Source of the DNA: Halorussus pelagicus
GTDB lineage: Archaea; Halobacteriota; Halobacteria; Halobacteriales; Haladaptataceae
Length of the DNA: 64,000 nt
NCBI RefSeq assembly: GCF_004087835.1
Contig: NZ_CP035119.1
Span: 2,108,001-2,172,000, forward strand
Direction: 5' to 3'
Numbering within the stretch: the stretch's first letter is position 1; each line of letters starts with the position of its first letter. The notes below the pieces were generated by a model. The model had not been told where the DNA came from. It worked only from the letters and a program-made list of their open reading frames with translations, and did not search any database. Positions 58,489-61,289 of the stretch are shown here, one piece after another. A program made the translations under genes and the position numbers.

Positions 58489-59859
58489 ATGACTACGCAC
58501 GAGTGCGACATCGTCGTCGTCGGGGCGGGAACGGCGGGTTGCTACGCCGCCGCGACCGCGGCGCGCGAAGGGTACGATGTCGTCATCGTCGAGCGCAAGG
58601 ACGAGGAGGAAGCGGGCCACATCGCCTGCGGCGACGCGCTGAAGGGCGCGGACGACTTCCCCGAGGCCATCCCGAAGTCCCAGTTGGAGTCGTCCTTTAC
58701 CAACACGGACGTGGACCACGGCCGGTTCGAGATTCCCCAAGAGAACACGGTCCTCGAAATTCCGGTGCCCGGCGAGTTGGCGGTCATCGACCGCTGGGAA
58801 TACGGCCGCCGCATCATCGAGGGTGCCGAGCGCGCGGGCGTCGAGTTCCACTACGACACAGTGGTCAAGGACGTGACCCAGCGCGAGGACGGCCGGGTCA
58901 CGGGCGTCCGCGGCAAGCGCAAGGGCGACATCCAGCGCTACGATGCCGACATCGTCGTGGACGCCGCGGGGTCGCTGTCGATTCTTCAGGACAAGGCCAA
59001 CCTCGAAAGTCCCACCTTCGACACGAACGTCACCTACTCGCAGTTCTGCTCGGCCTACCGCGAAATCGTGGAGGTCGAAGAGCCGGTGGCGTGGGACGAC
59101 GCGCTCGTGTTCAAGCCTACCGAGCGCGCGGCGGGCTATCTCTGGTACTTCCCGCGGACCGACACCGAAATCAACGCGGGGCTGGGTTTCCAGATGACCG
59201 AAGAGCCGATGCATCTCGTGGACGACCTGAAACAAGATCTCCGGAATCGCTCGGAGTTCCAGAACGCGACGGTCAAGGACAAACTCGGCGCGGCGCTCCC
59301 GACGCGCCGCCCCTACGACTCGGCGACAGCGCCGGGATTCATGGCGATTGGCGACGCCGCGGGCCACGTCAACCCGACCACGGGCGGCGGCATCGCGGGC
59401 GCGGCCTACGCCGGTAAGTACGCCGCCGAGGCCGCCATCGACGCCATCGAGGACGGCGACGTGGGCGAGGCGAACCTCTGGGAGTACAACCAGCGCGTGA
59501 TGGACCACTTCGGGGCGCGCTACGCCGGACTGGACGTGTACAACATCTTCTCGACCGCGGTGGACGTGGACGACCTGATGGGTCTGCTGGGCGCGCTCCC
59601 GGCGACGAAACTGGCCGAGGCACTCTACTCCGGTAGCGCGAACATCGGGTGGTGGCTCAAGATACAGATGGCGATCAAGTCGTTCGGCCACTGGGACCTC
59701 GTCTATGACCTCTACGAGACGAAGAACCTCGCGGACGACCTCATCGACCACTACGAGAAGTACCCGAGTCGCCCGCAGGGGCTGGAACCGTGGCAGCGCA
59801 AGCGCGACTCGCTGATGGAAGACATCTACGCGACGACCGGCGCGGACCCCAAATACTAG
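58489..59859 (+). CDS. Geranylgeranyl reductase family protein (archaeal lipid saturation)
   Basis: This 456-residue flavoprotein of the GGR family reduces double bonds of geranylgeranyl chains in ether lipids. The FAD-binding GxGxxG motif is VVVGAGTAGCYAAATAA near residue 8. Further segments are VVDAAGSLSIL, YLWYFPRTDTEINAGLGFQ and GDAAGHVNPTTGGGIAGAAYAG. The length and order are those of digeranylgeranylglycerophospholipid reductase. Its stop is immediately followed by a repeat element. Confidence 0.93.
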   Translation: MTTHECDIVVVGAGTAGCYAAATAAREGYDVVIVERKDEEEAGHIACGDALKGADDFPEAIPKSQLESSFTNTDVDHGRFEIPQENTVLEIPVPGELAVIDRWEYGRRIIEGAERAGVEFHYDTVVKDVTQREDGRVTGVRGKRKGDIQRYDADIVVDAAGSLSILQDKANLESPTFDTNVTYSQFCSAYREIVEVEEPVAWDDALVFKPTERAAGYLWYFPRTDTEINAGLGFQMTEEPMHLVDDLKQDLRNRSEFQNATVKDKLGAALPTRRPYDSATAPGFMAIGDAAGHVNPTTGGGIAGAAYAGKYAAEAAIDAIEDGDVGEANLWEYNQRVMDHFGARYAGLDVYNIFSTAVDVDDLMGLLGALPATKLAEALYSGSANIGWWLKIQMAIKSFGHWDLVYDLYETKNLADDLIDHYEKYPSRPQGLEPWQRKRDSLMEDIYATTGADPKY

Positions 59860-59947
59860 AACCTTTTACTGCGGTCGAGCGCGCCGTAGGCGCGCTCTTC
59901 CTTGTGAAACGTTCATGAAAAACACCGGAAGACAAACCGCGTCTTCC
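59860..59947 (+). repeat. Hairpin repeat element, copy A (behind the reductase gene)
   Basis: The element begins at the first base after the reductase stop. It contains CTTTTACTGCG, a perfect 9-bp hairpin (59877-59897, loop GTA), TTCATGAAAAA (59912-59922) and a second hairpin GGAAGAC/GTCTTCC (59927-59947). Copy B has the same order with different, compensated stem sequences. Similarity to copy B extends to 60019-60034. Confidence 0.7.
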
Positions 59948-60148
59948 AAGCCGTCGTTCGCTCCGCTCACGACGACACGGCGGTCGTCCCGCCACTCACT
60001 CCGTTCGCTTTGGTCCTCCCTTGGTCCGCTCGCTTCGCTCGCGGCGAACCGCGCTCACTGCGTTCGCCCGGACGTTGGTGCCTCGCGTGGAGGGTCGAGC
60101 CGTCACGATTTCACCACACCTTTCTCGGTGTCTCACTTCCTGTAGGAT

Positions 60149-60301
60149 ATGACCGACCTCGAAGACGCAGTTTCGGAGTTCCTGAGCGAGACCGACGCCG
60201 TGTATGAGGAGTACGACAAAGGATACATGGACGCCGACGCCGCCCTGAGCCGAATCGAGAAGGAAGTCGAAGAACTCCGAGAACAGGCCCGTTCGGAGTA
60301 G
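60149..60301 (+). CDS. 50-residue acidic coiled-coil protein
   Basis: The short protein (MTDLEDAVSEFLSE at its start) is highly charged and probably helical throughout; the C-terminal SRIEKEVEELREQARS forms a coiled-coil segment. It is flanked by two inverted copies of a repeat element, which gives it the look of a small cassette. I do not recognise a function. The upstream 289-nt gap (59860-60148) holds the repeat and a GC-rich skewed stretch. Confidence 0.6.
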   Translation: MTDLEDAVSEFLSETDAVYEEYDKGYMDADAALSRIEKEVEELREQARSE

Positions 60302-60437
60302 AAGCGAAACACCTCGTTCACAGCGAGCGACTGAAAGGAGCGAGCGCACCAGCAACTTCTGCAGTGCGGTTCACAGAGCAGTTCTACCGCGAGCGAGGAG
60401 CGAAGCGACGAGCGAGCGGACCAAGGAATCCCTCGAA

Positions 60438-60542
60438 GCCCGCGCCGTCGGCGCGGGCTGAGGGGGTGACGCCGCGTTTTTCATGAAAGTTTTACCAGCG
60501 AGAAGATTCGCCGAAGGCGAATCTACGAGCGCAGTAAAAGTT
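60438..60542 (-). repeat. Hairpin repeat element, copy B (behind the PAC2 gene)
   Basis: On the minus strand the element starts directly after the PAC2-protein stop with AACTTTTACTGCG (60530-60542). It holds a 9-bp hairpin (60504-60524, loop TTC on this strand), TTCATGAAAAA (60477-60487) and a second 9-bp hairpin (60438-60458). The order equals copy A. The sequence CCTTGGTCCGCTCGCT of copy A is also repeated, inverted, at 60411-60426. Confidence 0.7.
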
Positions 60543-61289
60543 TCATTGGAACATCCGAATCGACTGGGCCTGCGAACTCTCGTCGAGGTCGGCCTCCTGC
60601 ATGCGCTGGGCGAGTTGCTCTTTCTGCTCGCTGATCTCCTCGGCGCGGTCCACGAGGTCGGTCGTCGCCACATCGATGTCCGCGATGGGGTTGATGGCGT
60701 GTTCGATGAGGATGCGGGCGGCCTCCGGGTCGGGGAACTGCGGGTCGCTCTCCACGATGAGACCGAGGGCGTCGAGGTCGCGCGCGCCCGCCTCATGGAG
60801 GAGCGCGCCCGTGGGACCGCTGACCGCGCCGCGCTCCGTGGGCGAGTCGATGTCCTGCTCGTCCAGTCGGTCGCTCGCCTCGCCGGTTGCGACGCCGTAG
60901 AGCGACGGAATCTCGCCGGTCTCCTTCTGGTCGGGAAGGCCGCTCATGTAGAGCGGGGTCGCGTCGTGGTCTTCGACCCAGTTGCTGATGCAGGCGGCGA
61001 AGTCCGAGGCGGCCGACGCCGACACCGGCACGTCGCTCTGGAGCGCCACAAGGTCGCGGTCCTCGTCGGCGTAGAGTCGAACCGGCGGTCGAAGCTCTCG
61101 ACTCGATTCCTCGTAGACCGAGATTCGGGGAAGCCCGTCGCAGTCGATGCTCGCGTAGTAGGTCATGTCGAGGTCGTCCACGACGTGGTCGGTTGCGATT
61201 TTGCCCACCAGTCCGACACCGGGGAGACCTTCGACCAGCGTCGGTTCGCTCAGTGCCACGTCCTCGTCTACGACAGTGACAGTTGCCAT
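60543..61289 (-). CDS. PAC2-family protein (proteasome-assembly-chaperone-like)
   Basis: The 248-residue protein belongs to the PAC2 family: the start contains LVEGLPGVGLVGKIATDHVV, a glycine-rich loop typical of the family, followed by YASIDCDGLPRISVY. The C-terminal third has coiled-coil character (VDRAEEISEQKEQLAQRMQE). Some eukaryotic members help assemble the 20S proteasome; in haloarchaea the role is not shown. The ATG at 61289 is used. Its stop is shared with the start of repeat copy B. Confidence 0.88.
   Translation of the reverse strand: MATVTVVDEDVALSEPTLVEGLPGVGLVGKIATDHVVDDLDMTYYASIDCDGLPRISVYEESSRELRPPVRLYADEDRDLVALQSDVPVSASAASDFAACISNWVEDHDATPLYMSGLPDQKETGEIPSLYGVATGEASDRLDEQDIDSPTERGAVSGPTGALLHEAGARDLDALGLIVESDPQFPDPEAARILIEHAINPIADIDVATTDLVDRAEEISEQKEQLAQRMQEADLDESSQAQSIRMFQ

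Follow-up and report, generated by a model that had tools for sequence, protein, structure and literature searches.

In the window, the 64,000-nt stretch of Halorussus pelagicus DNA analysed here, two convergent genes end at a pair of inverted hairpin elements, copies A and B. The host gene of copy A (58489..59859, plus strand) is an ORF coding for a geranylgeranyl-reductase-type FAD oxidoreductase (GGR), with profile matches to FAD_binding_3 (2.6e-14) and to GGR_cat (3.7e-5, under the cut-off of that profile); its nearest named match was in Halorussus aquaticus (93%). The host gene of copy B (60543..61289, minus strand) belongs to the PAC2 family (PAC2, 1.3e-46). Matches to a covariance model placed the head hairpin of copy A at 59857..59923 on the plus strand (74.3 bits) and that of copy B at 60476..60546 on the minus strand (86.3 bits).

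Layout and fold of copies A and B

The layout that an earlier note, made from this DNA alone, had described for both copies, with shared flanks round a 9-bp stem and a second stem beyond, can be read directly in the sequence. Copy A runs from TAG (59857-59859) through AACCTTTTACTGCG, the 9-bp stem GAGCGCGCC/GGCGCGCTC and GTTCATGAAAAAC; copy B, on the minus strand, runs from TGA (60545-60543) through AACTTTTACTGCG, the 9-bp stem AGATTCGCC/GGCGAATCT and TTTCATGAAAAAC; the second stem lies downstream in both alike. Copy B begins at the PAC2 stop, as the note had it, and copy A starts directly at the reductase stop rather than one base past it.

Both copies fold into an outer stem P1, a C.C mismatch, a stem P2, a 9-bp variable stem P3 and then an unpaired tail, ATGAAAAAC or TGAAAAAC. 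The earlier note had not mentioned the stems P1 and P2, and P1 draws on bases of the stop codons. The P1 5' strand of copy A, GAAC (59859..59862, plus strand), pairs with GTTC at 59911-59914, and its G is the last base of the GGR stop TAG; that of copy B, TGAAA (60541..60545, minus strand), pairs with TTTCA at 60484-60488 and contains the entire PAC2 stop. The P2 5' strand is TTTTAC in both, at 59864..59869 on the plus strand in copy A, where it is the sense T-run and pairs with GTGAAA at 59904-59909, and at 60534..60539 on the minus strand in copy B, where it pairs with GTAAAA at 60490-60495. P3 occupies 59877..59897 (plus strand, GTA loop) in copy A and 60504..60524 (minus strand, TTC loop) in copy B. 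The tail ATGAAAAAC of copy A (59915..59923, plus strand) reads GTTTTTCAT (T5C) on the other strand. RNA folding z-scores were -5.1 for copy A and -6.5 for copy B, with none of 200 shuffles folding as well; for DNA folding, they were -3.4 and -5.6.

On the 3' side of GGR the rest of the insert (59924..60104, right edge approximate, no strand assigned) is rich in repeats, with further hairpin modules, and is absent from H. aquaticus. The inner modules of copy B, CACCCCCTC-stem-GAGGGATTCCTTGGTCCGCTCGC and beyond, span 60302..60475 on the minus strand. Between the two copies lies the 50-codon ORF (60149..60301, plus strand) which the earlier note had correctly seen as flanked by them. This ORF is kept in the genus. 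Among the 16 genomes where it was found near PAC2, its orientation was that of the window in 6 (H. pelagicus included) and reversed in 10; the best PAC2 tree, which bears on a possible inversion of the ORF through recombination between copies A and B, called for three changes of orientation, of which well-supported branches force only one.

Folded sites flush with stop codons, together with an ORF that lies between inverted copies and differs in orientation among species, would suit site-specific recombination sites of the integron attC kind, with the 50-codon ORF as one of the gene cassettes that they would bound. However, copies of the family are scattered over the chromosome and follow core genes, and the orientation of the ORF does not track the joint presence of copies A and B. 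We regard the recombination-site explanation as far-fetched.

A hairpin family at gene boundaries

Copies A and B are members of an apparently undescribed hairpin family that is widespread in haloarchaea; a search confined largely to the open-access literature, with subscription journals mostly outside it, found no description of such boundary hairpins. A genome search for the shared motifs of the two copies, with the pattern TTTTRCTGCGN{15,45}YRAAAMNTT, gave 7 matches in the 3.49-Mb genome compared to 0 for the reversed-pattern control. A second exact pattern had 77 matches, spread over 16 of the 18 genus genomes, while its reversed control had 0 in every genome. The covariance model (E<=0.01) matched 7-36 times in each of the 18 Halorussus genomes, some of these matches being one palindrome read on the other strand. 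Under the stricter filters of the order-wide search, the family was found in 60 of 99 genomes and in 23 of 42 genera. Among named genomes (L054 left out), 9 of the 13 searched had model matches, H. ruber, H. aquaticus and Halovivax asiaticus among them, and there was none in Halobacterium salinarum, Haloferax marinum, Halostella pelagica or Natrinema gelatinilyticum; the named and genus sets overlap, as genomes G001, G002, G005 and G011 appear to be H. amylolyticus, H. aquaticus, H. halobius and H. ruber. A known RNA family was rejected as a candidate: a search of 59700-60700 against Rfam 15, taken up to E=5, gave no match, and 20 family loci gave only two tRNAs.

Placement was counted in a set of 136 copies, with genes taken from our own codon-score predictor rather than from annotation. 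The set combines 89 copies found near exact-pattern hits or PAC2 ends and a further 51 taken from model hits (in genomes G000, G017, G089, G104, G066 and G022 and a few further loci), less 4 duplicates; one place is still counted twice (L011:51-127, the same as L186:603-679). Of the 136 copies, 79 have their start no more than 20 nt from a same-strand stop, compared to 6.1% in a random intergenic control (5440 draws), and 66 have it at -2 to +4 nt from that stop, compared to 1.7% in the same control. The tie to stop codons thus holds, the copies are not scattered without relation to stops, and the association that the earlier note had drawn from two copies extends to gene boundaries generally. 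For example, 6 copies stand at tRNA 3' ends (-1 to +2 nt). For a further 40 the upstream neighbour is the start of an opposite-strand gene, and 25 of these lie 26-60 nt upstream of its start codon, about at the upstream edge of the promoter. The rest comprise 8 copies more than 20 nt after a same-strand gene, one without a neighbour, and 2 inside a predicted ORF, of which the one in L004 probably reflects a prediction error: ATGTGA stands just before the hairpin.

The neighbouring genes of 133 copies were convergent in 46 cases, tandem in 75 and divergent in 12; a comparison sample of 278 spaces in the H. pelagicus genome had 38, 161 and 79, respectively. Host genes include those for the DNA polymerase D large subunit, two CDC48 ATPases, two PAC2 proteins, Orc1/Cdc6, PstB, PhoU, a Rieske protein and a PAPS-reductase-like protein. 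At the named GGR loci (79 of 80 searched, L068 left out), all model matches up to E=1 fell within ~80 nt of the GGR or PAC2 3' end by a by-eye tally. That the copies belong to a real, structured and boundary-bound repeat family is close to certain.

Two side observations concern the host loci. In L003, L160 and L166, copies follow an apparent second tRNA 3' end ~130-165 nt beyond a complete tRNA (Lys, Pro and Arg), as if an insertion had displaced them. The polymerase D large subunit gene of G009 (L163:3-1994) carries an intein with a LAGLIDADG domain.

Conserved pairing, exchanged stems and signs of spread

Across the family, the layout is P1 (4-5 bp, with stop-codon bases), a C.C or C.T mismatch, P2 (TTTTRC/GYAAAA), the variable P3, the A-run of P2, and a second A-run 8 nt further on. 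The tail ATGAAAA is conserved, and the head varies with the site. In 89 aligned copies (88 distinct), 96.5% of the paired cells were paired compared to 73.8% after shuffling, a figure that leans toward high pairing, as the alignment was fitted to the model. Double changes numbered 358 compared to 112 in shuffles, none of 500 shuffles reached the observed covariation, and two-sided change was seen at 16 of 21 pairs. Unconstrained folding of the 77 exact copies gave the same three stems in most, as judged by eye.

P1 follows its site: it is GAAC/GTTC or GAAA/TTTC where the stop codon gives the G, and CAAC/GTTG or CGAC/GTCG elsewhere. At its column pair 3-95 the partner strand follows the stop-codon bases (CG 48, GC 39, UA 1, unpaired 0), a pattern that speaks for an element acting in the mRNA 3' UTR, where a hairpin starting at the stop codon would affect the release of ribosomes, the decay of the mRNA or the binding of proteins. 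Excerpts of PMC12306157 report ribosome stalling by bacterial REPs that lie no more than 15 nt from a stop. Against such an element, there is no such mRNA upstream of the copies that stand at tRNA ends or at the edges of promoters, and contrary to sense-RNA pairing, the 13 G.T cells are not in excess over the 29 A.C cells among 2453. We consider a 3'-UTR role improbable. Stepwise RNA compensation was rejected on the same cell counts.

The earlier note had taken the differing but paired stems as a sign of selection. The outcome stands, and the mechanism is mostly wholesale replacement rather than stepwise compensation. When one gene end is compared between genomes, its stems are usually unrelated: among 76 such pairs, stem similarity was below 0.4 in 56 and at least 0.7 in 12. 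In the sister genomes G002 and G016, for example, the stems have nothing in common, although the flanks of the hairpin are identical and the PAC2 genes share 96.9% identity. Abrupt, both-sided changes with rare wobble intermediates would also arise if the perfect pairing came from mutation, by template switching at quasi-palindromes, and not from selection. However, the C.C or C.T mismatch beside P2 persists in 118 of 131 copies, where correction would remove it, and the runs and the 8-nt spacing are conserved outside the stem. A mutational origin of the pairing is very improbable in our judgement.

We observed that stems at different sites of one genome resemble each other beyond label shuffles (mean similarity 0.273 compared to 0.139; 0 of 1000 shuffles); without the outlier G015, 27 of 1000 shuffles reach the within-genome resemblance. 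The resemblance at the same site also exceeded that of shuffled labels (0 of 1000); stems are thus both inherited and passed from site to site.

These common stem types are one of four signs of spread. Another is the GGR site of H. aquaticus, which has no copy A and where the stop lies 64 nt from the 50-codon ORF, compared to 289 in the window; this unfilled site supports mobility. The third is the arrangement of close pairs, with 10 tail-to-tail, 3 direct and 0 head-to-head, and the fourth is a single direct array. Seven pairs, at an inner distance of 297-374 nt, make units of 420-500 nt whose heads are inverted repeats and which resemble one another over long stretches, both within and between genomes. 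Every one of the 18 genomes has dispersed arms of ~160-180 nt, and near-whole-unit matches are few. By analogy with REPINs, the occurrence of single and doublet forms looks like that of a spreading repeat. The direct array, in G066 (L323:2001-2350), holds three copies with a 142-nt period.

Apart from the direct array, these signs, together with the dispersed arms and the related units, would also favour a purely selfish REP/REPIN-like repeat, spread by an enzyme or by ectopic gene conversion and found at gene boundaries because these are harmless insertion sites; the missing G.T preference points the same way. Chance avoidance of genes, however, does not predict the concentration of starts at -2 to +4 nt from stops, nor does a selfish repeat predict the 8-nt spacing or the filling of the same core-gene ends, across genera, by different sequence types. 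A Y1 transposase (PF01797) was found in 10 of the 18 genus genomes, while the 8 in which it was not found all carry the family. We judge a purely selfish repeat unlikely. Origin from IS200/IS605 was rejected as well, since there was no good family copy at the 26 Y1 loci, where the best family-model match (25.4 bits) lacked P2.

A putative two-way terminator and its relation to known systems

The layout T(n)-stem-A(n)-N8-A(n) was present at the PAC2 end in 15 of the 18 genus genomes; elsewhere, T(n)..A(n)-N-A(n) was seen at 7 of 22 PAC2 ends and 13 of 80 GGR ends. The gap between the two A-runs was 8 nt in 34 of 35 carriers of the layout, and in a free-spacing scan of these 80 GGR loci, 12 of 20 second runs stood at exactly 8 nt. 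Among H. pelagicus genes, 1 of 240 had the layout, namely copy B itself, and the control with A and T exchanged gave 0 in all four sets. The sequence types that realise the layout at the PAC2 end differ: TTTTGCTGCG and near forms occur in most genomes, CTTTTTAC..GTCGGGT in G003 and G010, and T6 forms in G017 and G006. In G011 and G012 the PAC2 end looks rearranged, and G001 is without the layout.

In the G011 locus (L135), the PAC2 element seems to be broken by another repeat, and in that of G012 (L142) one arm reads reversed. A distinct PAC2-end type was seen in L131, L138, L331, L333 and L338, with CTTTTTAC or CTTTTTGC, mostly TCGTCGGGT..CCGCTCCTC, and GCTACGCTAAAAAC or TCTACGCTAAAAAC.

What the different types have in common is a T-run that follows the stop at once, then a hairpin, and on the opposite strand a pair of T-runs with 8 nt between them; for this reason we favour a two-way terminator. 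Judging from position and sequence, two-way termination is probably the best-supported role of the family. We tentatively prefer to read copies A and B as members of a haloarchaeal repeat that works in both directions as a terminator or insulator, spreads in a REPIN-like or gene-conversion-like manner, and is kept mainly at gene boundaries. The element would be an imperfect palindrome T(n)-stem-A(n)-N8-A(n), n = 4-6, whose head (5' end) abuts the boundary of a transcription unit. On its way out of the gene, RNA polymerase would meet a T-run a few bases past the stop or tRNA end; polymerase coming from the other side would run into two T-runs spaced by 8 nt before reaching the hairpin, and converging or read-through transcription would thus be halted before entering the gene or its promoter. 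Copies may spread and overwrite each other via the conserved flanks and be retained mainly at boundaries. A specific candidate binding partner is suggested by the 8-nt spacing together with the conservation of the pyrimidine mismatch.

The earlier note had offered 3'-end processing or termination elements, or else a small mobile repeat; both halves gained support, the first from the tie to stops and the second from the signs of spread, and the suggestion is thus partly borne out. Several observations weigh against a terminator. The sense strand past the hairpin has A-runs and not a T-run, and divergent genes, which need no terminator between them, flank 12 of the 133 copies. The excerpts of PMC7237163 give a median 3' UTR (first site) of 97 nt for Haloferax volcanii, so transcripts ending 4-10 nt past the stop would be atypical. 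With its few model matches per genus genome, the family is sparse and so is not the general terminator of these genomes; that candidate was rejected, as 464 kb held just 4 hairpins with TTTTNN..N'N'AAAA arms, copy B and the L205 copy among them.

It is also possible, though doubtful, that the family is a non-autonomous hairpin element, a counterpart of REPINs with a non-Y1 mobiliser, whose head would dock on stop codons, tRNA ends and promoter edges, whose stem would be swapped as a cassette, and which would thereby install two-way terminators at core genes such as those for DNA polymerase D, CDC48, Orc1/Cdc6, PstB and PhoU.

The family bears on how archaeal transcription units close off and on a possible role of DNA or RNA structure in this. 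It provides naturally replicated test pieces, in which one gene end carries different stems, or has the element in some genomes and lacks it in others. As stems are exchanged even between nearly identical genomes and the pairing is never lost, the question of how paired changes in hairpins arise also becomes directly testable.

Integron attC sites keep structure over sequence, adjoin stop codons, and form a cassette array next to the integrase. The family resembles them in the first two respects and, with its scattered copies and core-gene hosts, appears to differ in having no cassette arrays. Like bacterial REPs and REPINs, its members are short imperfect palindromes outside genes, often near stops, that occur singly or as inverted doublets, with types common within a genome. 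Unlike them, the family exchanges stems between kept flanks, has T- and A-runs at the 8-nt spacing, has larger arms, is haloarchaeal, and showed no link to a Y1 (RAYT) transposase in the 18 genomes and 26 Y1 loci. REP copy number exceeds 100 per genome in the excerpted text of PMC2817692, compared to the lower 7-36 model matches here, and REPs bear a GTAG or CGTC tag at one end in that of PMC3733652, whereas the family has no such tag and has its conserved tail instead.

The family shares with archaeal T-tract terminators a T-run at the 3' end of the transcription unit. In the excerpts of PMC7237163, H. volcanii has a T-stretch at intergenic transcript ends and hairpins near some ends, and inserts gave 95% termination for T5C and 59% for a hairpin; T-runs at gene ends are thus common to both, and T5C is found on the antisense side of copies A and B. 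Unlike the H. volcanii ends in those excerpts, the family is a defined repeat with T-runs on both strands round one hairpin, and its sense T-run, a putative terminator, starts 3-9 nt past the stop.

The PATEs and SMRs of Haloquadratum, as excerpted from PMC3119063, are likewise non-coding haloarchaeal repeats that are palindromic or have inverted ends. PATEs there have near-terminal palindromes related to IS605-type transposons and no terminal inverted repeats, while the heads of our paired units are inverted repeats, with no relation to IS605 or Y1 found. SMRs, in the same excerpts, are ~110 bp long, have terminal inverted repeats and insert into PATE or IS605 elements; the units of the present family are 420-500 nt long, and their placement is tied to gene boundaries.
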